Notes under the pieces: model-generated
What the model saw: the letters and a program-made list of their open reading frames with translations, nothing else
Told to the model about the DNA's origin: nothing
Database searches by the model: none
Position numbers and translations under genes: made by a program
Origin: Ascidia mentula
Taxonomy: Eukaryota; Chordata; Ascidiacea; Phlebobranchia; Ascidiidae
Direction: 5' to 3'
DNA: 64,000 bases
Assembly (NCBI GenBank): GCA_947561715.1
Contig: OX387203.1
Location: forward strand, 16,120,001-16,184,000
Part shown: in pieces, positions 4,157 to 62,795 of the stretch
Layout: each line of letters starts with the position of its first letter
Numbering within the stretch: the first letter of the stretch is position 1

Positions 4157-4221
4157 GTTGAGGTCACGCCTCATTACGTATACACGACAGCAACAGTGCG
4201 CTTGTGTGCCACAGCCGCGTG
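4157..4221 (+). repeat. 64-bp dispersed repeat, copy 2
   Basis: Second copy of the sequence at 3341-3404. It sits just after the 190-bp dispersed repeat, so the two may belong to one composite element. Confidence 0.6.
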
Positions 4222-4796: not shown

Positions 4797-4870
4797 AGTC
4801 TGTTCTTCTGGCACAACAAAAACGTAACTTTATTAACCGGCGTTTCGCGTGTTATCCAACTATAGTATTT
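4797..4870 (+). repeat. Fragment of an inverted-end element terminus
   Basis: GTTCTTCTGGCACAACAAAA followed by an ACCGGCGTTTCGCG-type core resembles the ends of the elements at 11142-12137 and 39265-40083. Such cores occur in Penelope-type terminal repeats. Only one end is visible. Confidence 0.45.
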
Positions 4871-18838: not shown

Positions 18839-21800
18839 TCAATTTTTCCGCCAACTCGTGCCGATATTTACGAGGTTACGGTTGGTGGGGTAAGTGCTTG
18901 TGAGTTTTTGTGTTTTCGGTGGATCATCAGACGAATATAGGAGCTTGATCCTGTCGTAGGAGCGGCCAACCGCCTCCTTCACCTCGTTTGCCAGCAAACA
19001 ATAAACCGAAACAAGGAAGATTTCCACTTGATTTATTTCAGTCGCGGCGAAAACAACCGTTTTTAGACAACCTTCAGTTTCGTCGTAAGATCAAATGAAT
19101 GCATTAAAACAACGAGATTGTGAGTGTGTGTCCCTTCGATTCGAAAACGAATTTAAAAATCGTGTATCTTGCGAAAGTAAAAGAAGTCAGCTTGCGAGTC
19201 TTAGAGAGTGTTAAACGGAAGCTTCAATGTACGTGACGCCCCATTTCGGAACGTTAGCCAACAATACCAAACGACTGCTTTTCAACCCTTGTCCAATTGG
19301 CTGACGGCACATCGTTTCGTCAGAAGACAACAAAAACATATATTGTAAACAGCCGCTAGAAACATATGTAGGTAGTTGGTTGGTATTAGCTGTTATTATT
19401 TTCAAGCAACATGTATGATTTAACAATTTAATAAATTTTCCTGCGGAACACACAATAAAATGACCAACAACCCAGCATAATATAACAAACCAACTATGCG
19501 ACATTATCAAATTTTCCACCTCGGCAATCGGGTTCATTGCGTTTACGTCATCATGTTGTCATAAACTGTGATAGGAGAAATTGTTGCGACAAAACGCGAC
19601 AAGCGTTCGTCATGCGCGTTAATAACAAGAAGACAAGAATGTTAAACCCGCTTTACCCGCGTTCCATGGAAAAAATCCGTAATAATTACCACAAATTTGT
19701 GGAGGGGGCATCAGCGTTTATTTGCGTGCGACTGCTGTTTACCAGTGAGATGGAACAACAAATGGTACAACCAATGTAAAATATATTGAAACTCACCAGT
19801 AAAGAATATTGAAACTCACCAGTAAAGAATGCGAAGCTCCAGGTTCCACCGAGCATCATGAAGAGGAAAATGAACGTTTTTGCAACTCTTTTTGCATCTT
19901 CCTGATCAGGGTCATCTACTCTGTTTTGCATTCTTCGGGAGGTTAATGCTACATAAGATGTTTTCCCGATGACAAGGAGGTTGATGACAAGGACGAGAGC
20001 AAGAGGAGTGATGACAGAAGTGTAGAAAACCGGAGTGTTGGGAGCCAACCAGCATCTGTCGTACTTGGGAATTGGTGAAGTGTTGTTTTGATATTGGTGG
20101 CACGCCTCATAATAAGGCTGTGGCTTCATGTAGACGCCCAAGTGGAATCCCACGGATGCGGATATTAACACAATCAAGACGGGAAGAAGCCACCCGAACA
20201 TCATAAAGTACTTGAGTCGATCTTTTGAATCCTGGGCTTGGAAGTGGATTGGATTAGAGGTAGCCTGGAAGAGTCGTATTCCCTCGATCAGAAACCACAT
20301 TCCTATGGTAAAAAAAGGTTCAAAAAAATGTTTGATTTGTTGTTATTTAAAAACCATTTACCTGAACACATCAAGAAGATATGACATAGCACTGTTAACG
20401 CCATGCATGGCTGATCATGCGTGACGATAATATCGTGCAGTAAATTGATGCCGTGCAGAAACAGAAGTGATGCCGTCAAACATATCTGGATGTAAATTCT
20501 GTCCCCTCCCTCATTGAAACAGAGCAGGATGATTGTGGTGAGCAGGAGGAAGAAGACGGATGTTGATTCTGTGACGTATGTAGTAATCTAGAACAATTAA
20601 TACATTGATAAGTCATAAATGTTTCAAGTATTTCCTAATAACGACATCGACCAAGTTTTTTTAAGTTTCATTATAATGGAACTGACTGATTTTATAAAGC
20701 ACAAGGTGCAATTATGAATGAAACATTATATGTGTACTTGCCTTAACACCGTGTGGAACGACGATGGATTTTACCGCCAGAAGGACGGAAAAAACAGTGA
20801 GGTGGTTGCAACTGCACGTCACGTGATCAGGGCTTGCTTCGGTGGTACAGCCTTCATCCGAATATAAAGACGCTGCTCCGTCGAAGAATGTGATAGTTGG
20901 GAGATTTTCTGGTTGCTTTCGTTTTTCTTCATGTTTTCAATTTCGTCACACGCTGATTGTGGTGACGTGGTAGGAAAGACGAATCTCACGTTGCCTTGCA
21001 ATCGATTGTTGTCTTTCACTTTTCCATATTGTCTACGTCGGGGAATTTCATCTACGCTCAAACCGACAATAACAATGTAGCTCGTATTTTTGATGGCTAT
21101 GTAACGTGTCGTGGCGAGGGAGCCAACTTGGTCAGTCGGACCTTCAACCTCCACATCCTCTGGAATCTTAAACTGGAGAACTGAAAATGCGACTTGGTTT
21201 GCTCCGTTTGTTTCCAACGTTAAGTCGATGCGAGTTGAACCAAGCAAGATATTGGCAGTGAGTTGTGTCTGGGGACCATTCAATGTCGTATGATTGAAGT
21301 AAAGTTGGGCTTTAACATTGTGGAAAGTGATTATGTTTGAAGTTTGATAGAAACGTGTGATAATCTCCACAAGTTGGTCGATGTTTGTTAAATCATCCGA
21401 ATCAGCCGGTTGTATAGAATACAGATTACTTTCCACACCTGAGCAAATGTTATGTTGAGTTTCTTAGATTAGAGCTTCAACTGCTGATCAGCGTAACTCT
21501 AAGAAAAGCACGCGTTTGCCTGCGTGGTGACAAACCAAGCGTTTATTGCTTCCATAACAACGCATATCTCAAAATTATGCCATTCCTTTTTCAAAATGAC
21601 TTGTTACCACTTGTAAGCGCTACGGTTAATATCAAGCCACTTAATACACATTTTTTCGTTGGATTTTGCATTAACTTACTCACTACGAATACTTTCATTC
21701 CAGCTGGTGTTTGTTGTGGTCGATGTTTGGTTGGTTATTGGGATGATGGTAGGTTGGTTGATTGTCGTGGCTTGTAGAGTTGTCAGTGGGATTTTGGTTG

Positions 21801-43500: not shown

Positions 43501-46068
43501 GCCTAATGTGTTATTTGTTCTCTCATTTTGTCAGAAATTTTATTCGAAAAAGTGTCAAGGATTTGGGTCTGTGCGGCCGTTTTATTAAACCGATATCTGC
43601 AATTGAAATGAGTGACATATGTCAGTTAAAGGGTTGTTACTTTTGTGGACAAACAACTTACTTGTTGTTGGAGAGTTAATGTTTAAAGATTGAATTGAAA
43701 TTGGTGTTTTGGGGTTGGTCTCGTCTGGAAACAATAAAATATACAATTAATTACTCCTGCATTGTTCGGTAAAAAATTGAAATTTGTTTCAAATGGAAAA
43801 CGTTCGTAGACATCTTAATTGTGTTACCGCTACCATACGGCTATGGCATGCGCAATGAATTGCAAGAAAAAAGCATAGCAGTTCCTATACAAACACCGCC
43901 AGACAGCGCAAGTACCTGACGCGTCTCCGCCATCAGCGACGATCTCTCTGTCAGCTGTCGGTCGCGATGATGTCATCACGCGAGATTGCGCCATTGAAAA
44001 CCCGGCGCCAGTAAACGGGGCTTTCCCGCCTGCGAAAGTAAAGTCTTACTGTGAAAGAGGAAACAGAACCACCGTGTTAAGTCAAGCGTGAAACATATGC
44101 GGATAACTCAAAATTAAACAACAATTTTGACACAGGACAAACATATGCATTATATATTCTATAACTCCACCAGCCTAAATCCAGCAAACAAAACACAGTT
44201 GACATTTTAGTGAATATTTCGCAAAAATTATACCAGAATGAAGCAAGTTGACAAAATTATGCAGTATCTTGGACCAGGTCCTTAAACATGTTATGTTTGA
44301 AATTTTTTATGCACCTTGGCACCAAATGTACATCCACCAAAAAGTCAACTTAAACTGTGGTTGCAACTCTAACCAATACAAATTGCTCTAGGATCTATTT
44401 TTTTAAATTTGAAGTAAGATTGTGTCAACAAACTTCGTTGTACATAGGAACAAACAGTTGTGTTCTTTGATATAAAATGTTGCACAATTAATAACTTACC
44501 TGAGTCAGTAAAACATTTCCTTACAGGGTCAAACTCATGCAGAGGAGAAGTATTGTGTTCTGTAAATGTGGGTGTGGAAAATTGCATTTCCTTCTGAATT
44601 TGAGATACTTGCAATGTGATTGCAGAAATATCTTGCAACATGAAAAGTTCCCCAAGCTTTTTACTAAAAAAATATTTGTATGTATATAAGTCAGTAATAA
44701 TTTTGGGCTTGAAAAGTTAATCAAGCTTTTTTCTAGAAACATATTTTACACTGTTTAAAAATCATTTTCTTAAAACTTAATTGGTAAAAGCATACTTCGA
44801 ATCCAAAAAAGGAAACCAGAGCTAAAATGCCGTTGATCATATTAAGTAGATACTTCGTACATACTTTGAACATATTCATATTAAATAGAAAACAAATACA
44901 AAACACTTCTTTTCAAAATATTCCACAAACAGTTGTTAATTTGACGGAAAATGGCAAAATGGTTTTATCTAAAATGAAATTGACTTTTACAAATAAAGTT
45001 CGACAAAATAGTATATTTGTACCTGACAAAGGACATATTGGCCCGTGTTGCTGGATTGTGTTGCCAACATTCCTGTATTACGGCTAATATTAGATCAACA
45101 ATTTCATTTTCCTCAGGTGTTGTATCTTCTTTTATCTCAGAAACACTTATTGAAGGACGTTTGCCACCCATGATTGCATCAATGTAATTATCAAGTGATG
45201 TGGAACCCATCGGATATTTTTGGAACAGTATAAAATACACAACCATGGCAAAACTGAAGACATCATCTTCTTTAGTGATGGTTGCCAATGGGTTGGAAAG
45301 TAATTTTGGAGATGCAAAGGTTTTTGTATACTCCCTATGCTTCCTGCTGGAACTCATTGCTGTTGTTGTACTGACACCGGTGATTGTTGACAACTTGGCA
45401 CTTCCAAAATCACCAACTTTGCAGATTAAATGTGCGTTGATAAAGACATTTTCTGGCTTAATATCACCATGAGTCATCCTTTTTTTCCCTGGGATATTGT
45501 GGATGAAAGCCAGGGCTTTGGAAATATCAAAACTCATTCTAAGTTGCAACCCTGGTCTGAGCTTAACATGAGAATTCTGAAGCAGGGTACCAAGGTTACC
45601 ACCTGCCATGTATTCCATTACAAGGGCCATGGCATTGGGCCATTCTGTCCATCCATACAAACGGACAATGTTGTCATGGTTGGCATTTTCAAGCATTTTA
45701 ATTTCATCAGAAATTCTGCAAAAATTATTTTAAACATCAACTTTTTTGTCAAAGCACATAAAATCACAGTTAAAACCAATTTATCAAATAAATAAGCCAA
45801 GTTTCTTTCAAAAGATGCCTGAATAAGTGCTGCAGAAATTAAATTTTATTTTTTCTTTGGCTCTGTCACTTTATATCACCACAAGCATTACAAACCTGTT
45901 TTTAATGTTTATCTTGTCTTTTTTCCCACCTTGAACCCCAAAGCATTTAAGTGCAACTTTTCCAAAATTTTGAATGTCACCTAGCAACACAGTGCCCACC
46001 AAACCTGAACCAAGTTCTCCATCATCTGTGTTGAGACAGCGGATTTCTGTCACATCATATCCCGTCAT
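40558..46068 (-). CDS. RIP-like serine/threonine kinase with helical C-terminus
   Basis: Exons: 45896-46068, 45023-45715, 44500-44663, 43662-43724, 42431-42496, 42289-42342, 41611-41679, 41101-41416 and 40558-40834. Phases close on 625 codons (624 aa). The kinase domain occupies roughly residues 10-290: GSGLVG loop at 20-25, VALK lysine at 41, HGDIKPEN catalytic loop at 140-147 (Arg of HRD is Gly, the Asp is kept) and GDFGSAKL at 159-166. The APE motif reads SPK. The short middle exons are Ser/Pro-rich and look disordered (STFPPSPPSAQ). The C-terminus is helical (LIQTYKQMLEAHQYNHARE, KFLEAILFFEVAQLAYVHP), possibly TPR-like. The fold resembles RIP/TKL kinases, but I cannot name the orthologue. 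Introns contain hAT-like and SINE-like fragments. Confidence 0.85.
41840..42085 (-). repeat. hAT-like element fragment in kinase intron
   Basis: In reverse complement it starts CAGTGTTTTCCAACCGGTGG, followed by several GGTACGC words, as in hAT non-autonomous elements. A related fragment is at 5547-5625. The opposite end is not found. Confidence 0.45.
43030..43290 (+). repeat. SINE-like fragment in kinase intron
   Basis: Shares GACTTATCGG, GCGATGCCAGTGAACC and TGCCTTGTCATG words with 29760-30110. The tRNA-like head is not clear here. Confidence 0.4.
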
Positions 46069-46533
46069 TTTGAAAACTGCAAAAAAGAAATGTAATCACA
46101 AACTCAACAAACATTATAGGCAAAGAAAACTCCAAGCAATAGGACATCAATAAATAGAAAATATAATGTTACCTTGATCTAGTCTAGTGTACAATCATAA
46201 ATACTATTATAACCTCAAATAAACCTTTTCATCTTAATCGGTTTTCCATGAAGCAAGGTTACAATCCAATAATTAAAACCAACATGAATATATAACAAAA
46301 AATACTTGAAAGTAAAGCAGATAATGTTTCAAAAATGTGAAACACAAAAACAAACCTTCTGAAAGGCAGAAGCAGAATCAATAGTTTAGAAACCAAATCA
46401 TTGTTGCACCAGGGGCAAAAACAACGGCTTTAACAAGGCATTACATATACTTGATTTTTTGTTACTTTATTACACTTTAACAAACCACAAACAAGTTCCT
46501 CTCCCAGCATTTGCAAAACATGTGGGCTAAAGA

Positions 46534-46601
46534 CAGACCGGTAACACCGTTTTCTCCAGTATATGGCGCTATTTTACTCCAGTAAATACGTTACCGGTCT
46601 G
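46534..46601. repeat. Short inverted repeat
   Basis: Arms CAGACCGGTAAC and GTTACCGGTCTG flank a 44-bp spacer that contains TCCAGTA twice. It may be a tiny MITE or a chance palindrome, and lies between the kinase promoter and the MULE. Confidence 0.55.
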
Positions 46602-46699
46602 CCGTTAGCTCCAAGAAAAAGCAATTAGTTTGTTTAGTTGCGTTACGCATGATCAACCACAATGCTTTTCTCAACTCGTGCCGTATTTTCAGCATGCCT

Positions 46700-46708
46700 T
46701 TTTCATCA
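46700..46708. other. 9-bp target duplication, left
   Basis: TTTTCATCA directly abuts the first base of the MULE. An identical 9-mer abuts its last base at 57976-57984. Confidence 0.9.
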
Positions 46709-46869
46709 GGTAGATACATTGACCACATAACGGGGGCATCGACGCAAACCAGATTATGACGTCACAATCGCTTTTAACAATGGACAAGGTTGTGCGTGCG
46801 TCAAATGTGCGTGAAGTGCGCTGTAGTCTGAAACGTGTCAACTGAACCGTGAATGTTTTGAAGAATATA
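46709..46869 (+). repeat. MULE terminal inverted repeat, left unique part
   Basis: About 161 bp matching the reverse complement of 57816-57975 almost base for base, including CATAACGGGGGCATCGACGC and GTGAAGTGCGCTGTAGTCTG. It leads into the minisatellite at an AGAATATAATGTGGG junction present on both sides. Confidence 0.9.
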
Positions 46870-47205
46870 ATGTGGGTTGGGCCTAGATTTCAGTTATGGT
46901 GTAGCCTGGAAGCATTAAATACTGTAATGTGGGTTGGGCCTAGATTTCAGTTATGGTGTAGCCTGGAAGCATTAAATACTGTAATGTGGGTTGGGCCTAG
47001 ATTTCAGTTATGGTGTAGCCTGGAAGCATTAAATACTGTAATGTGGGTTGGGCCTAGATTTCAGTTATGGTGTAGCCTGGAAGCATTAAATACTGTAATG
47101 TGGGTTGGGCCTAGATTTCAGTTATGGTGTAGCGTGGAAGCATTAAATACTGTAATGTGGGTTGGGCCTAGATTTCAGTTATGGTGTAGCCTGGAAGCAT
47201 TAAAT
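46870..47205 (+). repeat. 57-bp minisatellite, left array (6 units)
   Basis: The unit begins ATGTGGGTTGGGCCTAGATT and ends with GGAAGCATTAAATACTGTA. Successive starts are at 46870, 46927, 46984, 47041, 47098 and 47155, an exact 57-bp period. The units are nearly identical. The last is cut by the LINE at ATTAAAT. Confidence 0.95.
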
Positions 47206-50200
47206 TTGGTACGTCACAAAATTCTATAATATTTACTTATGTAGTTGTATGTTTGTTATATATTTTGTGTCAATGATTTCATTATTAGTAATTCCTCCTC
47301 ATGATGGCCCAGTTTAAAACTAAGTCCCCAGACCTATGTTTTTTGGCTAGTAATGAACACACCCACTCACAGTACTATGATCATGCATCACTGGATATGA
47401 CACTGAGAAATATGTTGAAGAATGATCTATATATTATCCACATTAACATTTGCAGTTTAAAAAAACACAAAGATGATTTAGAGAATTGGATATCAAATAT
47501 GTCTAAAATTCCTGATATAATAATGATAACCGAAACGAGAATGAAGCATAGTGTTATTTACACCACAGATATTGAATGGTATGAATTTTGCCACATTGAC
47601 ACAGTTTCTAATGCGGGTGGTGTAGGAATGTACATTAAACAGTCACTTTCATATCACATAAGGCATGACATCACACTCCTTTGTCAAGATAGTGAAAACT
47701 TATGGGTTGAATTATCACTTAAGAAACAACAAATTGTCCTTGGTGTAATATACAGACATCCCACATACTCTCATGACTCATTCCAAGATGCACTTTCCCA
47801 AACCCTACATGATCTTAATAAACATAATATTCCAGTTTATATTGGTGGTGATTTTAACATTGATTTGATGAAACATAACAGTTCTGACTCAGTGCGCAAT
47901 TTCATAGATACCCTTGCCTCGTACAGTTATACACCTCTGATATGCCAACCTACCAGGATAACTCCCCACAGTGCAACTCTTATTGATAATTTTTTCTCTA
48001 GTAATTCCAATGTAAAGTTTAAATCTGGTATTATTACAACAGACATATCTGACCATCTTGGAATATTTATTATACTCCACACAGTAGCCCTCAGTAAACC
48101 ACTAGAGAAAATACTTGTTAGAGATATGCAACATTTTTCTGCCCCAAACCTAATGCAAGACATAAACTTTCTGATCGAAAGCTTAACTCATTCCAACCAA
48201 AACCCTATTGATCAATTCACTCATTTTGTCCAAAACTTTATTTCCATTTTACAACATCATGCACCAATATCCCACCTGTCCAGAAGAAGAAGGAAACTAG
48301 CACAGAAACCATGGATAAGCAAAGCTATATACACTTCCATTAAGAAAAAAAATAGACTTTTTCACATGTTATGCAAATCACATTTTTCCAGTATTAGCAA
48401 ATACAACCAATATAAGGCATACAGAAACCGTTTGAACCATGTAATGAAACAAGCAAAAATCATTTTTTACAAGAAAAAACTAAAAGGTAGTGAAAAAGAC
48501 ATTGCTGGAATATGGAAAATAATCAACAGTATATTGCAGCGTAAACAGTCCAAACCCCATAAACCCACTGTTGTAAGAACAAACCATGGCAATATGTCAC
48601 ATGACCCTTTAATTATATCGAACACTTTTAATTCCTTCTTTGCCAGCATAGGAAATAGCATTGCACTCTCCATACCGTCCCCAGATAAACCCCTCCCAGC
48701 TGTTGCTTTAAGTGGCAATGTGTCTTCATCCTTCTTCTTCTATGAAACAACACCACACGAGATAGAAATGTGTATATCCCTTTTAGATGCAACAAAATCG
48801 GTACCATCTCATGATATCCCCATTAGGTTCATTAAGCTAGTTAAATACATAATTTCACCCTTTCTGTCGGAGGTGTATAACTGGTGTATTCGTAATGGAC
48901 AATATCCTGTAGTTCTTAAGTCGGCAGAAGTAATTCCCATACACAAAAATGGTTCTGTGAGTGAGTGCACTAATTACAGGCCAATATCATTATTGTCCCC
49001 TTTTGCAAAAATTTTTGAAAAAATTATTCACAGCCGCCTATATAACTACCTTTGAAAAAAGTAAGTTAATTTCACAGCATCAATACGGATTTAGAAGCAA
49101 ACATTCCACGTCACTCGCCATTTACGACATTTACGAGAAGCTCTTAGAATCTTTTGACAATAAACAGTTTACATGCGCCATTTTTCTAGACCTGTCTAAG
49201 GCATTCGACACCGTAAATCACGAGAAGTTGTTGGAAAAGTTAGAGCGCCAGTATGGAATTAGGGGAAATACCCTACACTTAATCCACAGTTACCTTGTAG
49301 GTAGAAGTCAATGCACTAGAATAGGAAATTCTGTGTCGGATATTAAACCCATAACATGCGGTTGCCCACAGGGTTCGCCATTAGCTCCTTTACTTTTTTT
49401 ATTGTACATCAATGACCTTCCGCAAGTATCCTCTTTTACAACCAAATTGTTTGCTGACGACACGGTTCTTTCAATGACCTCCCCTTCACTTATTGACTTA
49501 CAATCCCGTGTTAACGAACAACTCACAAATGTTGACAACTGGTTAAGGCACAATCGACTTTCTCTCAACATTCGGAAAACAAAGTTCCTATTGTTTTCCC
49601 CTTCCACCTCAAGCACTGGCAATTTCACCGTCACCATTGGTCATGAAAAACTTTTGCGATCAGATAATATTAAGTACCTCGGTGTATACATTGATGACAA
49701 ACTAACCTGGACAACTCACATTCACTATTTAGAAAAGAAATTGTCACAAGCATGCGGCACTTTTTTTCAGTTGCGAAGTAATCTTGACGTCAAAACGTTG
49801 AGAAACGTTTGCTATTCATTTGTATATTCCCATATTCAGTACGCTATCGGTGCTTGGGGTGGAGGATCGGCACTCTCACTGAAAAAACTCAACACCATTC
49901 ATAATAACATACTCCGCTCCATAACCTTTAGTTCCTTTCAAAGCCATGTCACGCCATTATATAAGAAATTAGATCTCACAAAAATTGGAGACATTTACCA
50001 ACTCGAACTGGCCAAAGTAATGCACGATTTCCATACCGGCAATCTACCGGCCTCCTACAACTCCTTATTTTCGTTAGTAGGCACAGTGCACGATCATTTC
50101 ACAAGAAATGCATCGAAAAAGAACTTATTTCACCCAAGAGTTAACACCACCTTCGGCTTACGTATGCTAAAACATAGGGGCCCACAGATATGGGAGGAAA

Positions 50201-50911
50201 TAAACCCTTCCATTAGATCGCTCTCCCGTCCATCATTTAAAAAAAAAATCCCCCAATATTTCACATCTCAGTATTAACTTCCTTTTTCATCCACCCTGTT
50301 AGCAGTCCGTTTTTCCCTTTTTTCTTGTAGTCCTCCTGTCGTTTATTGCGTTTCTTCTGTCTTTTTTTTATGGTGTTTTTATTTGTGTTTTTATGTATAT
50401 TCCACTGTACACTCTACGCCTAAATGAACAATTTACTGCCGTAGGATCCGTTGTTGTTTCAGACCTAGGAGCGCTGCACACCAACATCACAACGTGCGAT
50501 TGATCATCAGCAAGACCTACGATGATTCAACAAGCGCAACCTCCATACGATCCCGACCATCTCCAACCAAAACCACCACGTTTGGACTGTCCTCGGGACG
50601 TTAAGGTCTGTCGATGTGGATCAAAGGAAACGTTCTGAGAACCGAGTTGGCGTTTGCGTTTCGATGGGTTTTGCTTTGGCCAGCACGCACCTTGTCGTCA
50701 CATGCAGCTTGTCGCAACCCATCACCTCCCAGTGCGACTGGCTGCGATCCTACGGCAGACGGTGATTCTCCGTGAGGAAATCATCTTTACATGGGTGCCT
50801 GACTCGATAACCTTTATGGTTTTATCGGTGCCCATGCCATTTCATTTCCTTGTATATTGTTCGTCGCGTAGTTGCTTTTCTCGCAAAATAAACATGATTT
50901 GATTTGATTTG
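47206..50911 (+). mobile_element. LINE retrotransposon nested in the minisatellite
   Basis: Non-LTR element of the jockey/CR1 group by its layout: APE-type endonuclease then reverse transcriptase, with no recognisable ORF1. It interrupts a 57-bp unit. ATTAAAT occurs at 47199-47205 and again at 50912-50918, a 7-bp target duplication, although one copy could partly be microhomology with the tail. The 3' end is a short TGATT repeat rather than poly(A). The tail (50640-50830) is shared with relics at 24701-24960 and 32290-32460. Confidence 0.9.
47301..50277 (+). pseudogene. LINE endonuclease-reverse transcriptase with frameshift
   Basis: From ATG at 47301 the protein shows endonuclease motifs HINICSL, TETRM, YRHP, GGDFNID and SDH in order, then a spacer and RT: NYRPISLLSPFAKIFEKII, QYGFRSKHST, LDLSKAFDTVNH, CPQGSPLAPLLFLLYINDL and the catalytic FADD. 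The first frame stops at TGA (49053) just after SRLYNYL, and the RT continues in the next frame. One extra T in CTACCTTTGAAAAAAG explains the break. It ends at 50277 after QIWEEINPSIRSLSR. Otherwise the coding sequence is intact, so the insertion looks recent. Confidence 0.92.
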
Positions 50912-53068
50912 ATTAAATACTGTAATGTGGGTTGGGCCTAGATTTCAGTTATGGTGTAGCCTGGAAGCATTAAATACTGTAATGTGGGTTGGGCCTAGAT
51001 TTCAGTTATGGTGTAGCGTGGAAGCATTAAATACTGTAATGTGGGTTGGGCCCAGATTTCAGTTAGGGTGTAGCGTGGAAGCATTAAATACTCTAATGTG
51101 GGTTGGGCCTAGATTTCAGTTATGGTGTAGCGTGGAAGCATTAAATACTCTAATGTGGGTTTGGCCTAGATTTCAGTTATGGTGTAGCCTGGAAGCATTA
51201 AATACTGTAATGTGGGTTGGGCCTAGATTTCAGTTATGGTGTAGCCTGGAAGCATTAAATACTGTAATGTGGGTTGGGCCCAGATTTCAGTTAGGGTGTA
51301 GCGTGGAAGCATTAAATACTCTAATGTGGTTTGGGCCTAGATTTCAGTTATGGTGTAGCGTGGAAGCATTAAATACTCTAATGTGGTTTGGGCGTAGATT
51401 TCAGTTATGGTGTAGCCTGGAAGCATTAAATACTCTGATGTGGGTTGGCCCTAGATTTCAGTTATGGTGTAGCCTGGAAGCATTAAATACTCTAATGTGG
51501 GTTGGGCCTAGATTTCAGTTATGATGTAGTCTGGAAGCATTAAATACTCTAATGTGGGTTGGGCCTGGATTTCAGTTATGGTGTAGCCTGGAAGCATTAA
51601 ATACTCTGATGTGGGTTGGCCCTAGATTTCAGTTATGGTGTAGCCTGGAAGCATTAAATACTCTAATGTGGGTTGGGCCTAGATTTCAGTTATGATGTAG
51701 TCTGGAAGCATTAAATACTCTAATGTGGGTTGGGCCTGGATTTCAGTTATGGTGTAGCCTGGAAGCATTAAATACTCTAATGTGGGTTTGGCCTAGATTT
51801 CAGTTATGGTGTAGCCTGGAAGCATTAAATACTCTAATGTGGGTTTGACCTGGATTTCAGTTATGGTGTAGCCTGGGAGCATTAAATACTCTAATGTGGG
51901 TTGGGCCTGGATTTCAGTTATTGTGTAGCCTGGAAGCATTAAATACTGTAATGTGGGTTGGGCCCAGATTTCAGTTAGGGTGTAGCGTGGAAGCATTAAA
52001 TACTCTAATGTGGTTTGGGCCTAGATTTCAGTTATGGTGTAGTGTGGAAGCATTAAATACTCTAATGTGGTTTGGGCGTAGATTTCAGTTATGGTGTAGC
52101 CTGGAAGCATTAAATACTCTGATGTGGGTTGGCCCTAGATTTCAGTTATGATGTAGTCTGGAAGCATTAAATACTCTAATGTGGGTTGGGCCTGGATTTC
52201 AGTTATGGTGTAGCCTGGAAGCATTAAATACTGTAATGTGGGTTGGGCCCAGATTTCAGTTAGGGTGTAGCGTGGAAGCATTAAATACTCTAATGTGGTT
52301 TGGGCCTATATTTCAGTTATGGTGTAGCGTGGAAGCATTAAATACTCTAATGTGGTTTGGGAGTAGATTTCAGTTATGGTGTAGCCTGGAAGCATTAAAT
52401 GCTCTGATGTGGGTTGGCCCTAGATTTCAGTTATGGTGTAGCCTGGAAGCATTAAATACTCTAATGTGGGTTGGGCCTAGATTTCAGTTATGATGTAGTC
52501 TGGAAGCATTAAATACTCTAATGTGGGTTGGGCCTGGATTTCAGTTATGGTGTAGCCTGGAAGCATTAAATACTCTAATGTGGGTTTGGCCTAGATTTCA
52601 GTTATGGTGTAGCCTGGAAGCATTAAATACTCTAATGTGGGTTGGGCCTAGATTTCAGTTATGATGTAGTCTGGAAGCATTAAATACTCTAATGTGGGTT
52701 GGGCCTGGATTTCAGTTATGGTGTAGCCTGGAAGCATTAAATACTCTAATGTGGGTTTGGCCTAGATTTCAGTTATGGTGTAGCCTGGAAGCATTAAATA
52801 CTCTAATGTGGGTTTGGCCTGGATTTCAGTTATGGTGTAGCCTGGAAGCATTAAATACTCTAATGTGGGTTGGGCCTGGATTTCAGTTATTGTGTAGCCT
52901 GGAAGCATTAAATACTGTAATGTGGGTTTGGCCTGGATTTCAGTTATGGTGTAGCCTCGAAGCATTAAATACTCTAATGTGGGTTGGGCCTAGATTTCAG
53001 TTATGGTGTAGCGTGGAAGCATTAAATACTCTAATGTGGGTTGGGCTTAGATTTCAGTTATGGTGTTT
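50912..53068 (+). repeat. 57-bp minisatellite, long left-arm array (about 38 units)
   Basis: Same unit and orientation as 46870-47205, with variants: ACTGTAATG or ACTCTAATG, GTAGCCTGG or GTAGCGTGG, GGGCCCAGATTTCAGTTAGGG, and TATGATGTAGTCTGG. Blocks of variants recur at distances of 4, 5 and 12 units, so a higher-order structure exists. It ends abruptly at 53068 in TTAGATCC. Confidence 0.95.
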
Positions 53069-53084
53069 AGATCCATTAACATAA

Positions 53085-54002
53085 TTTAGGTCGTTCTGTT
53101 TTGACTATGTTGGTTTCAATAAAAGACATATGACATTTGGAGCGACAAGTCAAACAGAAGACACAAATGAAAAGGTTTATTATGATTTTATCTAAAAAAA
53201 ACAATTTTAAATGCTATATACTTGAATTTCAGCTGAACATCTGCAATGCTTGTGTTGGAATATTGCATCTGTGGAAATAAAGTATAATTTGAATAAGGTA
53301 AGAATTACTGTTAAGTCTTTGAAGTTCATTTTGTGTGGTCGTTTTTACTCCTGCCCAAAAATGAAATTATTTTATATGATACTATGGATATGGTAGTATC
53401 TGTCGTCATATTACAAAATATTTTCACTTCGTATATTGTTTACATTGGATTTAAGAAAAATGGATAATCATGTATGATTCTTGATTGATAAAACAAAATT
53501 GTTACAAAGCTTTAACACTGCAGATTCTGCAAGGATTGAAGCCACCCATAAGCTGCAAGAAACCAGATACAAATTTCCAAACATATTTTTTGCAAAGTTG
53601 AAATCTTTATAAAACACATTAATCTCATGTTAGACAGCATTTGTGTTATGTATATTGTTTTGTGTATGCTAATTGTGATGAACTTCCTTTGGGCACAAAC
53701 ATTGCACTCCTTGTCACATGTCGCTACAAAAACAGTGCTATTTGTGTTGTAATCGATTTCTCTTTTTTATGGCGAACTAAGTGCATTTCAGGCTTTCCCA
53801 ATAAATAATGTTTGCTTATATGTTGATGGACTGCATTTTTATGTTGTGTTTGAAAAATTCCTACCACGCCCAGGAGGCTTTTCCATGTGGTCGTTGGCAT
53901 TTTTGATAACCCAGACGCCTCGCCAGTAGCCATATGAAACTGGGTTGAACAACATAATACATGTTGAAGAAAACACAATACTTAAATAGTATGGTCTTAA
54001 AA
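53085..54002. other. MULE interior, non-coding
   Basis: AT-rich internal sequence between the left minisatellite arm and the transposase 3' end. No supported coding region. Confidence 0.4.
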
Positions 54003-54245
54003 TCACTCTGCAGAAGTGTTACACCTCTCAGGTAGAGTCCCGATTGGTCAGGTTTACCATCACTCTACGAGTGTTACACCATTTGGGTCAAAATCCGTAG
54101 GTATGGTAGGAAATTCACTTCACAGGAGTGTTACACCTCTCAGGTAGAGTCCCGATTGGTCAGGTTTACCGTCACTCCAAGAGTGTTACACCCTTCAGGC
54201 CAAAACCAAAAAGGTACGGTATTACAGTCACTTTGCAGAAGTGAT
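54003..54245. repeat. About 56-bp tandem repeat of small palindromes
   Basis: Five sites of the form CACTCTGCAGAAGTG, CACTCTACGAGTG, CACTTCACAGGAGTG, CACTCCAAGAGTG and CACTTTGCAGAAGTG recur about every 56 bp, most followed by TTACACC. Pairs form a 112-bp unit that shares CTCAGGTAGAGTCCCGATTG. It lies inside the MULE near the 3' end of its gene. Confidence 0.75.
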
Positions 54246-54346
54246 AAAACTAAAAAAATTGGGACATTGTGGTTGTTATGGTATAGTGAATAAATTTCAT
54301 TTGGCTGGTGTTCTTTTTTGTTTGACAGATTGTAATGCTGTTTGAT

Positions 54347-55909
54347 TTACAATGTGCACACAAAATATTTATCTTTTTTTGCTTGCTTCTCTGAAAAACC
54401 AACACACGTGATGTGAAACCACTGTCCACATCGAGTGCACTCAATCCAAACTTTTTTCAGGGGATTGGCGCCTTCATCTCCACATACTTTACATGTCTCT
54501 ATTTCATTTGTGCCTTGAAGACATTTGCCAGCAATTTCCCCAAACATTTCAAGTCTATAGCTGTAGGTACAAACATTTTGCACATGTTTTTCTCCAGTTG
54601 CCAGCCATTTCGCATACATACATATCATCACTCCACAGCTTGATCCATCTGGCTGTTTTGTTCTGTGTGGTATTTCCACAGTATTAATTTTCCAACCAAA
54701 CTTTGTTACCATTAGACAATTCACCATAGCTTTTGCAGTTTGAACATTGCTGTTTGTTTTTACACAAGGCATTGCTACTGGGTCTATGTACAGCATTTTT
54801 CGACCAGGGATGTCAACTACAAGCAAAACCCAGTGAAAGCCTGAAGAGTTCCAAGGTATAAACAGTGTTTGTTTCCCTTGCAAATTCATCCCTTCCCAAA
54901 CTTTTTTAATGGAAGCTTTTCTTTGTAATATTTGAGCCACTGTCGAACAAACATAAAGTGTGTGTTGGTGCACACCAGTTAATCGCCATAAGTAGCTGTT
55001 AATGACTTCATCATAAAGCCAACCAACATTAAATCTGCTGTCATGCTTTTTAAGCTCGCAAACTTCAGCTGGTGGCAATGAGTCTATCAAATGCTTCATT
55101 AATTCAATAAACTTTTGATGGCTTTGTTTGCAATCTGAGGTTTTGTTGTCAATACCGCAGGTTTTGTCGTCAGTTACAATGTTTTCAGGTTGAGCAATTG
55201 ATTGGTTTGTGGATGAAATCTTGATGTCTTGTGTTTTGACCACAGTATCACAAACAGTTTCAGCTGACAATTTGTTCACAACAACCGGATCCAAAACCAT
55301 ATAAACAGAATTGGAGTACCAATCTGGCAGACTATGCCATCCAACATCTGCATACTTGTTAAAAATTGCAAACATGTGTTTGCATGGTAAAAAATTGTGT
55401 AAAAAATCATGACATGTACACTTTGGAAAATCTCTTTCGGTGCCAAATTTAATGGTGTATATTTCAGAAGAGGAACTGCTTACCACAGTGAACAAGTCCC
55501 CTTTTCTACATATAGAACTTGCCTGAATGTTTGTAGTTTCTCCGATACGTTTTATACAATGTTTTACCAATTTTCTTGGTCGGTTTCGAAGAAAGCTGGG
55601 AACCTCAGCATTGTAACTTCTGTAATTTCCAGAAGATCTCATGTTTTGTTGTTTGTATCTGCTCAAAATAAAATTTATTGATTCATTTTGATTGCATGTT
55701 CTTGCACATAACCATAAATGTTTTAGTGGAGGTACACTCACTTCTCATATGCATTTGGCAAAAATTCATGGTGCAAAATTGTAATTAAGCCAGAAAGCGA
55801 CTTATCAGTCCTAAATCGCACATGGCATTCTTTTAAAACTCGGTTTTGTCTCTCAACACCATTGTTGGTGCGGATCAAAACCTTTAACTGGTCTGCTCGA
55901 TAGAGCCAC
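54347..55909 (-). pseudogene. MULE transposase C-terminus with SWIM, Ulp1 and PHD domains
   Basis: Two exons: 55742-55909 and 54347-55658, joined in phase. The first reads VLIRTNNGVERQNRVLK and LITILHHEFLPNAYEK, the end of a MULE DDE domain. The second holds a SWIM finger (CTCHDFLHNFLPCKH), a C48/Ulp1-like protease with GFHWVLLVVD (His and nearby residues), LYIDP and QPDGSSCGV (Gln and Cys), and a C-terminal PHD finger (CKVCGDEG, CTRCGQWFHITCVG). The frame ends CTL before the PHD's last cysteine, where a GTAAAT donor may splice to a further exon. Upstream the coding runs straight into the minisatellite, so the first two DDE acidic residues are absent. This is a truncated transposase gene; the protease and fingers look intact. 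Confidence 0.85.
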
Positions 55910-55911
55910 AT

Positions 55912-57815
55912 CCTAACTGAAATCTGGGCCCAACCCACATTACAGTATTTAATGCTTCCAGGCTACACCATAACTGAAATCTAGGCCCAACCCACATCAG
56001 AGTATTTAATGCTTCCAGGCTACACCATAACTGAAATCTAGGCCAACCCACATTAGAGTATTTAATGCTTCCAGGCTACACCATAACTGAAATCTAGGCC
56101 AACCCACATTAGAGTATTTAATGCTTCCAGGCTACACCATAACTGAATTCTAAGCCCAACCCACATTAGAGTATTTAATGCTTCCACGCTACACCATAAC
56201 TGAAATCTAAGCCCAACCCACATTAGAGTATTTAATGCTTCCACGCTACACCATAACCGAAATCTAGGCCCAAACCACATTAGAGTATTTAATGCTTCCA
56301 GGCTACACCATAACTGAAATCTGGGCCCAACCCACATTACAGTATTTAATGCTTCCACGCTACACCATAACTGAAATCTAGGCCCAACCCACATTAGAGT
56401 ATTTAATGCTTCCAGGCTACACCATAACTGAAATCTAGGCCCAACCCACATTAGAGTATTTAATGCTTCCACGCTACACCATAACTGAAATCTAGGCCCA
56501 ACCCACATTAGAGTATTTAATGCTTCCATGCTACACCATAACTGAAATCTGGGCCCAACCCACATTACAGTATTTAATGCTTCCACGCTACACCATAACT
56601 GAAATCTAGGCCCAACCCACATTAGAGTATTTAATGCTTCCACGCTACACCATAACTGAAATCTAGGCCCAACCCACATTAGAGTATTTAATGCTTCCAC
56701 GCTACACCATAACTGAAATCTAGGCCCAACCCACATTACAGTATTTAATGCTTCCACGCTACACCATAACTTAAATCTAGGCCCAACCCACATTAGAGTA
56801 TTTAATGCTTCCAGGCTACACCATAACTGAAATCTAGGCCCAAACCACATTAGAGTATTTAATGCTTCCACGCTACACCATAACTGAAATCTAGGCCCAA
56901 CCCACATCAGAGTATTTAATGCTTCCAGGCTACACCATAACTGAAATCTAGGCCAACCCACATTAGAGTATTTAATGCTTCCAGGCTACACCATAACTGA
57001 AATCTAGGCCAACCCACATTAGAGTATTTAATGCTTCCAGGCTACACCATAACTGAAATCTAGGCCAACCCACATTACAGTATTTAATGCTTCCAGGCTA
57101 CACCATAACTGAAATCTAGGCCCAACCCACATTACAGTATTTAATGCTTCCAGGCTACACCATAACTGAAATCTAGGCCCAACCCACATTAGAGTATTTA
57201 ATGCTTCCAGGCTACACCATAACTGAAATCTATGCCCAAACCACATTAGAGTATTTAATGCTTCCACGCTACACCATAACTGAAATCTAGGCCCAACCCA
57301 CATCAGAGTATTTAATGCTTCCAGGCTACACCATAACTGAAATCTAGGCCAACCCACATTAGAGTATTTAATGCTTCCAGGCTACACCATAACTGAAATC
57401 TAGGCCCAACCCACATTACAGTATTTAATGCTTCCACGCTACACCCTAACTGAAATCTGGGCCCAACCCACATTACAGTATTTAATGCTTCCAGGCTACA
57501 CCATAACTGAAATCTAGGCCCAACCCACATTACAGTATTTAATGCTTCCAGGCTACACCATAACTGAAATCTAGGCCCAACCCACATTAGAGTATTTAAT
57601 GCTTCCACGCTACACCATAACTGAAATCTAGGCCCAACCCACATTACAGTATTTAATGCTTCCACGCTACACCATAACTGAAATCTAGGCCCAACCCACA
57701 TTACAGTATTTAATGCTTCCACGCTACACCATAACTGAAATCTAGGCCCAACCCACATTACAGTATTTAATGCTTCCACGCTACACCATAACTGAAATCT
57801 AGGCCCAACCCACAT
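55912..57815 (-). repeat. 57-bp minisatellite, right-arm array (about 33 units)
   Basis: Same 57-bp unit as the left arm in the opposite orientation, with the same G/C variants. It runs from the transposase coding sequence to the right unique inverted repeat. A few units lack one base (AGGCCAACCC), shifting local phase. Confidence 0.95.
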
Positions 57816-57975
57816 TATATTCTTCAAAACATTCACGGTTCAGTTGACGCGTTTCAGACTACAGCGCACTTCACGCACATTTGACCACTCACAACCTTGT
57901 CCATTGTTAAAAGCGATTGTGACGTCATAATCTGGTTTGCGTCGATGCCCCCGTTATGTGGTCAATGTATCTACC
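57816..57975 (-). repeat. MULE terminal inverted repeat, right unique part
   Basis: Reverse complement of 46709-46869. It ends CAATGTATCTACC immediately before the 9-bp target duplication. Confidence 0.9.
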
Positions 57976-57984
57976 TTTTCATCA
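57976..57984. other. 9-bp target duplication, right
   Basis: TTTTCATCA, identical to 46700-46708. Confidence 0.9.
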
Positions 57985-60129
57985 CACACACACCCAGCTA
58001 CACATTGTGGTGTTAAACTTCAGTGTTCATTTTAATCACAAACAGCAGTTCAATCAAAAAGTTGCTTTTTCAGCGTGTCGGTTTACCCGTTGTCGGGGTA
58101 TGTCCCCGCTGGGTGACCGTGGGGTACGACTGCGTATCGGCCTCGCACCTTACGGATCCGACTGAGTCTCGTTGGCAACTCGGCCTCGTAGGCAACTTGC
58201 CTTCTCTATCTCAAGGTTTACTGTTGGAGTTAAAGAACTCCTTTACACAAGTCTGTGCGTCTTCTAAATAGTCTAACTCCCGACTAAACACATACATCCA
58301 CCAAGCTTCAAGCCAGTCCAAAGTTGTTCATAAATCCATTTATTGATATAATCCAACGAATAAATCCAAGTACAGTACAGTACAATTGGGGCTCCTGTAC
58401 AGTGTACAAAAGCAGAACCAACAGCCTAGACCCTTACACAGCAACCTTCAAAACACACTGATTTGGCAGGCGCTAGTTGCTCTGCTTATATAGTCTGCGG
58501 TTGGCCACACGTATTGATACCTTATTTGGAGTTGTTGCGCAACTTGAATGCAACTTGAAGTTGACCGATTTGGTCGATTACGTCAGTTATTTTTATAGCT
58601 TAATTAACTAAGTGCCCTAATAGGTTATTTATGTATAGGTAGACTTTGTTTTCAGAATAACTAAAAGTAGTTATGTTTATTTTAGCTTTATTTATCATTT
58701 GCGAAAGAAGTACTTGTGTTTAAATCAACCTTTATTTATTATTTGCCAAAGAAATGTCTGTAATTATTTTAACTTGATTTACATAGTTAGTTTGGTTGCC
58801 TAAGTTACCTATATGACTTTATTGCCCAAATTTCATGGTTTATAACACATCTATAATGTGGCTGCTTCTACCGGCTACAATTTTTTCACCTGCCACCAGC
58901 TCGGCAGGTTTTTCCTATTAAATTGTCCGGTCAGGAATTGACCTAAACCGGAAATGAGTTCTTCTTTTTTCCCATGTCGTTTTATTGGACGTCACAACTT
59001 GGACATGCGTTGAACGCGTGATTACAATGACTTTGGTTTTAACTCTCGGTCATAATATAGTTATACGCTTTGGACCTTTTTTAGTATATACATGTGTTGT
59101 GCGGCGACAAGCGTTTCGTTTACTAAATGTTTTATTGGTTCTGGTCAAGAGGTGACTGGAAATATTGTCAAAAAGTTGTTGGCAGAAACGCCAACATGTT
59201 GCAACAGTGCCAGTGGTGGGATTATTTTTTTTTAACATCCGCAAGGACCCTGGACCGATACATCAGGATTCATTATATACGTGGTTATTTGGGACTTCTA
59301 CTGAAAGAAGTGATACACAGCCCTACGATACACGCTTGCTAACAACCGGTTCGCGGAGGTCATTAAAGCCACTACTGAACAGCCAGCGCCCAGAACATAA
59401 GCGTGTTGCCAGGTGCTGCAAACATTATCAAAATTCACGCTCGACTAAAACATAAAAACTGCCTCAGTAGGCGTGCTTATGACGAAGTTCCTTTGACCGC
59501 TTTGTTAACCAATCTACCAAGAACCTGTAGAAAAAAACAGCTTTATAACCGGAGATGAAAAGATTTGTGGATATAGCCAATATTTATTGTGTGGATTTGG
59601 CAGGCCCCACGAAAGAAAGTGTGTAATAATTGCGGTGAGCCAGGGGCCATTACCACTATAGAAGGCCCATGATAAAAATATGTGGGAATGAACTCCATTG
59701 TTTCCCTTCAAACTCAAGAATTGCGACCTGTAATTTCATGTCATCTCCAAAAAAGGTTGTCGCCACGACATTAGGACCCGGGAATCAAAAAATGTCAGCG
59801 AGGAATATTTTTAACGGCCTTAGAAGCCTTTTCACATTTGAGGATTATGAATATTCTTGAACGTAGTTGCGCATACTTGCCTACGGTTAGGTGTGTTTGG
59901 TTCAATATATTTATTGTTGGTTAAGACTCAGAGGTAAATTAGGATATTGTCGAAAAGCTCATTGGTTTGAACACCGACCTTTTACAATAGCCGTTACCCT
60001 CATTTGAACATGAACTAAAAGAATCAAACCTTACCTTGTAGCAAGACAACATTTGGTAATGTTGTTTTATTCTTCGTATATCTGCATAAATATTACTTGC
60101 TTTTGAAGGTGTTTTGCTTAATTCATACA
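57985..60129. other. Intergenic between MULE and RNase L-like gene
   Basis: At 58060-58200 the sequence turns GC-rich (TTGTCGGGGTATGTCCCCGC), unlike its surroundings, and CAGTACAGTACAGTAC follows near 58371. It may be a relic of another element. No gene is supported. Confidence 0.35.
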
Positions 60130-62795
60130 ATGGGACAAACCAACGAAAGTTGCAGCATGTCGAAGTATAGTTTTGACAAAGGTGGTGTAATAGCCGAAAA
60201 CGATGGCGTACAAGTCCGCATGTAAGTTGCAAATGTTGCTTAAAAAATTGTCGGATATATTTATCATCAGTATTTAATACTACACGGAAAAACACAGTAA
60301 TATGGTGCAATATTTAAATGTATCGCTTATATTTACAGGATAGATTTTTCGTAAAATTTTTGATTGTTTCAGATGTCGGAGAAAAGAAGATAATCACATT
60401 TTTGCTGCAAAAATTGTCGGCCCAGGATATTACGGAGAGAGGGAAAATGAAAGGGAGATTCTTGACAAAATCGACTGCGAAAATGTGATCAGATTTTACG
60501 ATTACTTTCAGATGCATTTAGAAACTTATTTTAACTGAGAAAAAATCAGTGAATGTCAGTGTATTTTTGTTGTTAGGGAAATGAATACAATTACTCCTTT
60601 CTGGATCTCTGCAGCGGAGATGCTTCTCAAGTACTTTTGTATACCGTTAATTTGTGTATTGCATATTAAGCATCACTTGAACAGCTTTACCTTAGCATCA
60701 CTTTACCAATTTATCCTTGTGCAACTTTGATGATCCAAAAATAACATAAACATGTTACAATACGTCATTAACAACGTTTAATTTGGCCACCGCAGAGGTG
60801 AAGAAAATATCAATATAAAAAAATAAACAAAAATTCTAAAATCAGTTAATAGAACGTAGCATACGAGCGTTCGTTTGTGGTAACTATATTAAAATTGTCG
60901 ACTTAAAGTGACTTTTACTTGTAGTGTTTTTCCAATATAATGGGTTTGGACACTAAAATTTGCCACGAATAAATACAGTGGATCCTCTAAATTGAAAAAT
61001 ATTAGTGCTTGTGTCTTTTTGTTGGTAGGAAAAACAATTCAGCTGCTTTATTATGGAACTCTGCAGCGGAGAAGTTTCTCAAGTATTTCTACATATTGTT
61101 AATTTCTGTATTGCATATTAAGCTGTAGTCGTTTTTATTTTTTCATGAAAACTTGTTGACATAAAAATAAATTATAATTTTGCTGCTGTTTTCATGGTTT
61201 TTATGTCTTTTCAGTGGGTTGCCAACATGAAGGGTAATTCTAGTGATCCAATTGATCCCGAAACGGGAATGAATTTAAAGAAAAGTTTCTTGGAATATTT
61301 TGATGTTGGACCACTCGACATACTGCGTCAGTCCATTACTGGTGTAAAGTATTAACATGAAACTGGCATAGGTTTGTACACAGTCGGCCACGCAGACGAT
61401 TTCTCAGCTTATTTGCTTGTTTTATGTTCAGTTCACGGCAAAATCAACCCTGAAAAAAAAAGTTGTAGTAAAAGTTACTGACTTTGGTTTCAGTAGACAG
61501 AATTCCAGATTAATGGTAAGTAGAACATATTTTGCAAAGAACACATCAACAGGATCACATTGTTTTTCAGATAAGGAGCCATGATATATTTTCTCTCGGT
61601 GAATACATTTACTACGTTCTTACTATTGGAGGATCCATGTTTCAAAGGGAAACAAAACAACCAATCAATTTTCAAAGCAGAAAAGCGCCAGAATTCCATG
61701 GTTTGGAACACTCTGCATTGCTGACAATGGAACAAAAAGTAACTACCCGCGACCTGCTGAAAAGAATGGTTGCCGATGATCCTACATGTCGGCCAAACAT
61801 TCATACTGTGGAAATTCATCCAAGATTTTGGGAAGACAAACGAAAAGTGGAATTTTTTGAGGTCAGTTCTGTCTTTGTATGCATTCGTTTGAAGCATTCC
61901 TTATAAGGTGTAACAGATTCACTTAATAAGTAAAATTTAAATCTGGTAAAAAATACTTTTTTTTGTGGAAATACTTTGGTTGCTTAACCCAATGGTTTTT
62001 AACAGAGGACGCAAACAAGAGCGCATCGTGACGTGAAATTTCAGCACGAGCAAAATTAAAAAAAATAACGCAAAGGGTTCGCGACCATTCTGACGTCATC
62101 AAAAGGGGATCTGAAGAATGAAAACTACTGGCTAAACCCATGTGTTTTTCTTTCTGGCAGGATATAAGACGTGTTTTGGAAATTGACGACTACATTGACA
62201 TAGAAAAGTTCAACATGTTCAATGAAGCTTATTTGTCTGATTCACAATATAGTGGCGAAGAAAAGTACAGAAAGTTTAACTTAACTGGCGCCACCCCAAG
62301 GTTTAATCGTAACAATTGCAATGGAATTCAACACATTATTCGAGAGTTGAGAAACAAGGTAATATGTTTTTATCAACATAAAATCTATTTAACAGAGAGC
62401 AAATGAAATGAAATGCAATTGTGTTTGCACAAAAAACAACAACGCCGATGAACAATTACAAAAAATAAGTTTCCCCTTGTCCATTACACACCACAACGTA
62501 CCTGACGACGTGTTACGTAGTAAATATTTTGGACAATACCAACACATAATGATTGAAGCTTAATGTTTTTATGTGAATTGTCACATGTCCTAATGTTAAT
62601 TTACAATGTCAGGCGACCCATGCCGCTCAGCTGCCAAAAGAGGAAATGAGTTACTTCGGTTTAACACCAGGACGGGAAAACGGAAACAAGTTTTTGGGGC
62701 GATTTCTGGCCAACTTTCCGCACTTGCTCATTCACTGCTACGAGTTCTTCCGTGAAGACAGTAAACTGCCTAACAGAAAAAAATATTACGCATAG
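60130..62795 (+). CDS. RNase L/IRE1-like kinase-KEN protein, possibly a pseudogene
   Basis: Exons: 60130-60221, 60373-60511, either 60577-60630 or 61029-61082, 61215-61371, 61432-61515, 61571-61861, 62161-62358 and 62613-62795, giving about 398 aa. Start is MGQTNESCSMSKYSF. The N-lobe has FAAKIV and NVIRFYDYF, and the C-lobe VKVTDFGFSR and SHDIFSLGEYIYYVLTIGG. HPRFWEDKRKVEFF opens a KEN nuclease domain with LRNKATH (the spacing of the catalytic Arg and His in IRE1/RNase L is kept) and NFPHLLIHCYEFF. No ankyrin, luminal or transmembrane part is seen. The HRD motif reads HGK, so the kinase is probably catalytically dead. Lesions: a TAA at 61352 where family members have Leu, one extra A in a run of nine at about 61450, and AT instead of GT after exon 2. 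These mean either a recent pseudogene or sequence errors. Confidence 0.75.
60577..60630 (+). other. Duplicated hinge exon, version a
   Basis: 54 nt, phase 0 at both ends, encoding GNEYNYSFLDLCSGDASQ. The acceptor is TTGTTAG, the donor GTACTT. The copy at 61029-61082 has the same length and phase, and the flanking intron (TTGTATTGCATATTAAGC against CTGTATTGCATATTAAGC) is duplicated too. Confidence 0.75.
61029..61082 (+). other. Duplicated hinge exon, version b
   Basis: 54 nt, phase 0, encoding EKQFSCFIMELCSGEVSQ, closer to the kinase consensus at the hinge (MELC). Including both copies would also keep frame, but would repeat the hinge, so the two are likely alternatives. Confidence 0.75.

Follow-up and report, generated by a model that had tools for sequence, protein, structure and literature searches.

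A non-autonomous copy of a probable foldback-type MULE with minisatellite arms in the ascidian Ascidia mentula

A 64,000-bp stretch of the Ascidia mentula genome (contig OX387203.1, positions 16,120,001 to 16,184,000, forward strand; hereafter the window) holds two long arrays of one 57-bp repeat that face each other across a gene-bearing core. What kind of structure is this, can it move, and how did its arms grow? Judging from sequence comparisons within the same genome, the window very probably carries a foldback-type MULE (a cut-and-paste DNA transposon) in a non-autonomous form, whose arms would be minisatellites that lengthen within each arm and travel with the element.

The element occupies positions 46709-57975 (11,267 bp) and is flanked by exact 9-bp copies of TTTTCATCA; a chance 9-bp match at a single fixed pair of flanks has a probability of about 6e-6 given the base composition. 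Its ends, GGTAGATACATT, point toward one another, and the 160-bp terminal inverted repeats are 98.1% identical to each other (BLASTN). Tandem Repeats Finder (TRF) gave 5.9 + 37.8 = 43.7 units for the left arm, which is split by the insertion of a non-LTR retrotransposon (LINE), and 33.5 units in the opposite orientation for the right arm, every array having a period of 57. An earlier, sequence-only reading of this locus had reported identical flanking 9-mers, matched termini with an inverted repeat of about 160 bp, and about 44 and 33 opposed 57-bp units, all of which were recovered. The parts of the element, in window coordinates, are:

46700..46708, no strand: left target-site duplication TTTTCATCA (scripted flank comparison)
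46709..46868, plus strand: left 160-bp unique terminal inverted repeat, beginning GGTAGATAC (40 scored genome copies)
46868..47205, plus strand: outer part of the left arm, 5.9 units of the 57-bp repeat (TRF)
47206..50911, plus strand: nested non-LTR retrotransposon (LINE) in the left arm, limits set by the break in the array
47292-49055, plus strand: endonuclease frame of the nested retrotransposon
48961-50277, plus strand: reverse transcriptase frame of the nested retrotransposon
50912..53066, plus strand: inner part of the left arm, 37.8 units of the 57-bp repeat (TRF)
53067..55741, minus strand: transposon core, with the 3' part of the transposase gene and a 3' non-coding part
54347..55658, minus strand: transposase exon 7, open, with SWIM zinc finger, Ulp1/C48 protease and PHD finger
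55742..55919, minus strand: exon 6 remnant with the catalytic-Glu motif TNNGVERQNR, directly abutting the right array
55914..57817, minus strand: right arm, 33.5 units of the 57-bp repeat, inverted (TRF)
57816..57975, minus strand: right 160-bp terminal inverted repeat (genome search with the end)
57976..57984, no strand: right target-site duplication TTTTCATCA (scripted flank comparison)

The nested retrotransposon has TTTGA-type repeats at its 3' end and a duplicated TTAAAT (about 6-7 bp). We also noted a minor tandem repeat in the 3' non-coding part of the core (window 54015-54199; period 55, 3.3 copies), whose counterpart in the copy at C52:489639 has a period of 78-113 (copies are named here by contig and position).

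Next, the 160-bp end was searched against the same genome (196 Mb, 79 contigs). The sequence-only reading had proposed this search with two adverse outcomes in mind, namely ends that run on past the terminus and duplications at no other copy. The search returned 48 candidates, 40 of which were scored, at 81-100% identity. Thirty of the scored ends could be paired by position and orientation into 15 elements, the smallest of 2,560 bp and the largest of 35,028 bp; the remaining ten are outside the duplication count. Among the paired ends, 29 of the 30 align from base 1 of GGTAGATAC/GGAAGATAC and the remaining one from base 2, and no scored end match except the window's own extends more than four bases outside the GG. 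Ten of the 15 paired elements carry exact 9-bp duplications, no two of them the same (ACTGCAGAC, AGGAAATGA, GATTTCCTG, TAACATTCC, AAGGAGGAC, CTAAAAGAG, GTGCACTTG, TTTTCATCA, CAAAACATG and TATTTATAT). Neither adverse outcome was observed. Both arms contain 57-bp arrays in 13 of the 15 paired elements and a single arm does in the other two, with about 5 to 368 units among copies. The largest copy, of 35 kb (C71:16391491-16426518), now has about 178 + 368 units (~546) between exact 9-bp duplications; its arms may have had another length at insertion. A 34-mer of the 57-bp unit has 917 matches genome-wide, 891 of them within the fetched loci of the family, which indicates that the repeat is nearly confined to it.

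To look for unoccupied sites, the window flanks were joined with one TTTTCATCA and searched against the same genome. Six of the 11 matches span the query unbroken at 97-100% and a seventh spans 26-316 at 96%; the other four are the window's own two halves and two fragments. The best uninterrupted paralogous site, C71:16467467-16467783, is identical over 317 bp. The sequence-only reading had asked for an empty allele in other individuals; these seven paralogues are uninterrupted sites within the same genome. Two further features of the window are needed here:

46123-46708 and 57976-58086: repeated insertion-site sequence
46514..46522, no strand: one copy of CAAAACATG, corresponding to the site that the 35-kb copy (C71:16391491-16426518) occupies, here empty

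The insertion-site sequence is present at least eight times, the window included, at 96-100% identity in a local cluster (C71:16.17-16.60 Mb). The 35-kb copy occupies a paralogue of the window site at a point 186 bp from the window's insertion site; its joined flanks match window 46123-46708 at 96%, where the window holds the site unoccupied. Elsewhere, the copy C52:9530821 lies in an exon of a sister MULE transposase gene, and its removal together with one 9-mer restores a continuous alignment to the family's gene (74%). These observations bear on the explanation that the locus is an inverted satellite duplication or an assembly artefact and no mobile element. Arrays of hundreds of 57-bp units are prone to misjoined assembly, and the site does lie in a cluster of local duplications. 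However, many unrelated sites carry target duplications, paralogues of the site exist without an interruption, the 160-bp ends are fixed and arrays recur in one or both arms. All this makes the explanation highly improbable, and we rejected it on the independent duplications and empty sites, although the array lengths themselves could still be misassembled.

We then investigated which protein the family encodes. A minus-strand frame in the window (54347-55744) scores above the Pfam cut-offs for three domains, namely SWIM finger, Ulp1/C48 protease and PHD finger, and a PDB search with it returned SENP2 (E 5.7e-7) and PHD fingers such as that of KDM5B. Upon scripted splicing of 12 copies, four (C2:6800321, C70:20310447, C70:19543633 and C52:489236) are open over 1,106 residues in a seven-exon frame with AG/GT at the internal boundaries and 0-14 residue differences; the other eight are broken, deleted or unmatched at some exon. 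The protein of C2:6800321 scores above cut-off for an N-terminal CARF/ALS2CR8 domain (124.7 bits), the MULE transposase domain PF10551 (42.7 bits, cut-off 27.6), a ZSWIM1/3 RNase-H-like domain (50.0) and C48 (37.7). Its PHD finger (PF00628) reaches 30.0 bits within a range of 30.0-30.8 (cut-off 24), and SWIM falls just under its cut-off (19.1 vs 19.6). A FLYWCH zinc finger found no match within the 1,106 residues scanned, starting at 'E1'. In an alignment of 106 homologues the catalytic D, D and E are kept in 99, 102 and 104, respectively; for the Ulp1 residues His, Asp, Gln and Cys the counts are 42, 43, 46 and 52, most of the others being gapped there. The best of these homologues is a Ciona intestinalis protein with 56% identity and the same domain set; the same search also turned up MULE-domain proteins of lancelets, frogs and a fish. 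The identification of the element as a MULE, first made from the letters alone, is thus borne out by PF10551 in a spliced complete copy and by the conserved D/D/E. As a separate observation, the locus L038 (C1:15013000-15021299) contains, at 141-5379, a transposase gene fragment in about three tandem repeats with 1,677-bp spacing.

Can the window copy move by itself? Scripted exon matching found none of exons 1-5 in the window copy; exon 4 is the one that carries both catalytic Asp. Its core is 97-98% identical to C2:6800321 over the 1.9 kb of the gene and 87.5% identical over the 1.2-kb 3' part, and 99.3% identical to C71:16391091 over 2,875 bp. A 504-bp linker deletion is common to the window copy, C71:16391091 and C1:14373379, the latter two sharing an additional upstream deletion joint. 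Intron loss in the window copy was rejected, since other copies show the stretch it lacks to be coding linker with an open frame. The window copy is therefore a non-autonomous deletion derivative without the DDE exon. That it is itself autonomous, as the intact SWIM-Ulp1-PHD frame and catalytic-Glu motif might suggest, is practically excluded; the missing DDE exon rules it out. Of the 'complete' element of the sequence-only reading, the ends are indeed complete, but the gene is not.

Each of the three deletion-subfamily copies has its own exact duplication, indicating that the form with the linker deletion has moved; we infer that this DDE-less form moved in trans. Compared with four complete or near-complete copies, the divergence of the deletion subfamily is mostly synonymous per site (ratio of nonsynonymous to synonymous changes per site, pN/pS, 0.32-0.39). 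Exon 7 contains a stop in C71:16391091 and C1:14373379, two of the three copies, which suggests that the remaining SWIM-Ulp1-PHD frame is not maintained in that form. For the same reason, a stand-alone Ulp1-PHD gene conserved in this subfamily, a candidate that we considered, is unsupported.

How recently has the family moved? Contig C70 holds two oppositely oriented copies, separated by 767 kb, that match at every one of their 10,521 bp, both arrays included, and differ in their flanks and duplications. A full-length match without a single difference argues for very recent movement of the family. Among the eight gene copies compared, identity is 99.2-100% for seven and 97.1-97.4% for C2:19269706.

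How, then, did the arms become so long and so unequal? Units were extracted from the 15 elements with an exact anchor, so that units with a mutated anchor were missed; this yielded 1,299 units of the 57-bp repeat, 206 of them distinct. Arms were compared in ten elements after five were dropped, namely the second identical C70 copy, three with few or no units in an arm, and C71:4022529, which has no transposase match for orientation. Repeated blocks inside single arms reach 40 units (offset 31), 26, 22 and 13. By contrast, the two arms of an element have at most 1-3 identical units in a row in common (permutation p 0.13, ten elements), and across elements same-side arms share runs of up to 8 units and opposite arms of up to 4. 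Large within-arm blocks together with short opposite-arm runs suggest that growth occurs mainly by block duplication in place, the longer arms then being inherited via transposition.

Several observations weigh against the proposed reading. The target duplication is imperfect or longer at three of the 15 paired elements (a 10-bp match, TGAAAAACTG; a match at 8 of 9; and 9 bp displaced by one base) and absent at two (C71:4022529 and C2:19050828). The open frame covers 1,106 residues from 'E1' on, perhaps only part of the full protein, and most of the few coding differences among the complete copies alter an amino acid (0-3 synonymous changes, pN/pS 0.8-2.4). Lastly, variant overlap between the two arms of an element is 0.214 vs 0.161 for random pairing (permutation p 0.03). 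On a tally of ten exact duplications, two one base off, one of 10 bp and two with none, the sequence-only assignment to a foldback-type element with 9-bp duplications nevertheless stands. The slight excess of arm-to-arm overlap means that rare exchange between arms is possible, and it would fit arms kept alike by copying between them, through a foldback hairpin or gap repair from the other arm. Such copying is very unlikely as a general explanation: opposite arms share runs of 1-3 units vs within-arm blocks that reach 40, the runs common to same-side arms of different copies are longer (up to 8), and the two arms differ in length, in one copy 7 vs 130 units. The unit-run comparison accordingly disfavors gene conversion between arms as the chief cause of growth.

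Growth within each arm and transposition can be combined into one mechanism. Transposase from complete copies would bind the 160-bp ends, and possibly the 57-bp units too, cut the element out and reinsert it at 9-bp staggered cuts. The DDE-less window copy would have been moved in trans, or may have lost the exon after insertion. The arms would lengthen inside each arm by block duplication, which slippage, unequal exchange or repair of the excision gap could produce, and once lengthened would travel with the element on transposition.

A second MULE family bears on whether the arms have a function. In its left arm, the copy C52:489639-516123 holds another element of 14,292 bp ending GGGTAACACTAATTTACGG:

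C52:490228-504519 (L030-L031): element of the second MULE family with 42-bp arms

Its arms contain 149 and 47 units of a 42-bp repeat, facing in opposite directions, and it is flanked by a duplicated CATTTATG(G) of 8-9 bp. Its frames score over the cut-offs for MULE (31.6 bits) and C48 (30.9) and below the cut-off of 24 for PHD (19.6), a SWIM-like motif is discernible by eye only, and the copy has two frame breaks. The end of this family has 47 genome matches. These include opposite pairs 1.5 and 2.8 kb apart, possibly short non-autonomous copies. Among named proteins, the second transposase is closest to one from Ciona intestinalis (48%), two unnamed proteins scoring higher. Both families were placed in a tree with 36 of 128 homologues (38 sequences, no Rehavkus among them). 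A split with support 1.0 separates the two families, and a Ciona protein lies near each. This suggests that the foldback build arose or was kept in two separate lineages. The 42-bp unit scores 23 against its own end (shuffled mean 15, maximum 24), a relationship that is only suggestive. A sample of a sister subfamily, one 10-kb stretch (L046, C52:14049001-14059000), shows no long inverted arms and carries tandem arrays of periods 105 and 99 near the gene; the related locus C67:8325816-8332698 has repeated matches to the 105-bp array beside its gene. The L046 sample does not show arms to be general among sister subfamilies. Across the remaining sister subfamilies the DDE exon is 72-91% alike.

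Could the 57-bp units be docking sites for the element's own protein, either secondary transposase sites or anti-silencing targets of the SWIM-Ulp1-PHD part? We regard this as possible, if somewhat improbable. By analogy, it draws on the presence in one genome of two deeply separated MULE clades, both with inverted minisatellite arms, Ulp1 and PHD-like domains (the second's PHD being below cut-off), and on precedents described in the cited passages for Galileo, with secondary transposase sites (PMC3688188), and VANDAL, whose VANC proteins bind tandem repeats (PMC5735166). However, the 57-bp unit resembles the 160-bp end no better than chance (score 14 vs a shuffled mean of 15), and we therefore discarded the idea that the two are related. 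Unit number also varies from about 5 to 368 among copies, the deletion-subfamily frame has a stop in two of three copies, and the sister sample is without inverted arms. A bolder version holds that giant arms are functional and convergent: the SWIM-like/Ulp1/PHD-like proteins of two unrelated MULE clades would dock on the arrays and strip SUMO-dependent silencing or nucleate a higher-order transpososome, so that arm length would set the activity of a copy and let DDE-less copies move in trans. We consider this doubtful.

Other features of the window lie apart from the element. Protein-kinase-like exons flank it, and scans of the window for tRNAs and Rfam families found nothing:

15845-17251, plus strand: reverse-transcriptase frame, 469 aa (RVT_1), of a separate retroelement
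19689-20342, minus strand: exon of a secretin-family seven-helix receptor (7tm_2)
44968-45729, minus strand: protein-kinase-like exon
61520-61903, plus strand: protein-kinase-like exon, below the curated cut-off

Which known elements does the family resemble? It has the hallmarks of the MULE superfamily, namely a DDE domain (in C2:6800321, not in the window copy) and mostly 9-bp duplications (8-11 bp expected), and the long inverted arms of tandem repeats that define foldback-type structure, which is not a clade. Drosophila Foldback/NOF elements likewise have long inverted tandem-repeat arms and 9-bp duplications; compared by description only, they differ in their short repeat units. Rehavkus is defined by a 9-bp duplication and a terminal repeat of 26-400 bp (PMC6446971 Table 1), and in the passages cited it also has a PHD finger and a minisatellite next to the end, as in Rehavkus-1_TC of Tribolium (PMC6446971, PMC10218199). 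The family studied here shows a 9-bp duplication, a 160-bp terminal repeat, a PHD finger and a minisatellite before the 3' terminal repeat. By contrast, Rehavkus is listed in those passages from arthropods and annelids only, and its arms have few monomers, vs up to about 368 units here (PMC6446971, PMC10218199); the words 'peptidase', 'C48' and 'ULP' are absent from the main text of PMC6446971, whereas this family encodes Ulp1. The nearest known kind is Rehavkus/foldback MULEs, the Rehavkus match being one of structure. Sea-urchin TU elements, likewise of foldback type, plant MULEs bearing Ulp1, and Zisupton may be further points of comparison.

Tm1 of root-knot nematodes and Muta1 of Aedes are described with a MULE transposase, 8-10 bp duplications, tandem repeats in the terminal repeats and non-autonomous derivatives, but with 12-15 bp units and transposases of 496 and 504 aa (PMC3169594, PMC5225508). 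The Tm1 examples given are of 1,080 and 2,593 bp and belong to the Phantom subclass (PMC3169594). Phantom MULEs have an N-terminal FLYWCH zinc finger according to the Tm1 passage (PMC3169594), and PMC6446971 lists none, FLYWCH or SWIM for them. Tetris of Drosophila virilis is a foldback element with 8-10 bp duplications and 220-bp arm repeats in arrays of up to 66, for which the cited passage reports no coding capacity found (PMC4079207). Its authors suggest there that larger arrays disrupted transposition (PMC4079207); here, the copy with ~178 + 368 units has an exact 9-bp duplication. The sequence-only claim of an undescribed build was hence too strong, as Rehavkus, Tm1, Muta1 and Tetris share parts of it. 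What is apparently new is the tunicate host, the Ulp1 domain and arms of up to about 368 units. In a literature search with most subscription journals outside its reach, we found no report of such an element in a tunicate, and nothing on ascidian foldback elements or on ALS2CR8 with MULE.

A 2019 survey describes, in the passage cited, limited evidence of chordate MULEs past one Ciona savignyi sequence (PMC6446971). To this sparse record the present work adds a tunicate family with open-frame, recently moved copies and a DDE-less subfamily at three sites. With arms ranging from about 5 to 368 units and cores 97-100% identical in the comparisons made, the copies form a natural length series. 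Such a series is suited to asking if long foldback arms promote or impede transposition, and by what route minisatellites originate and spread.

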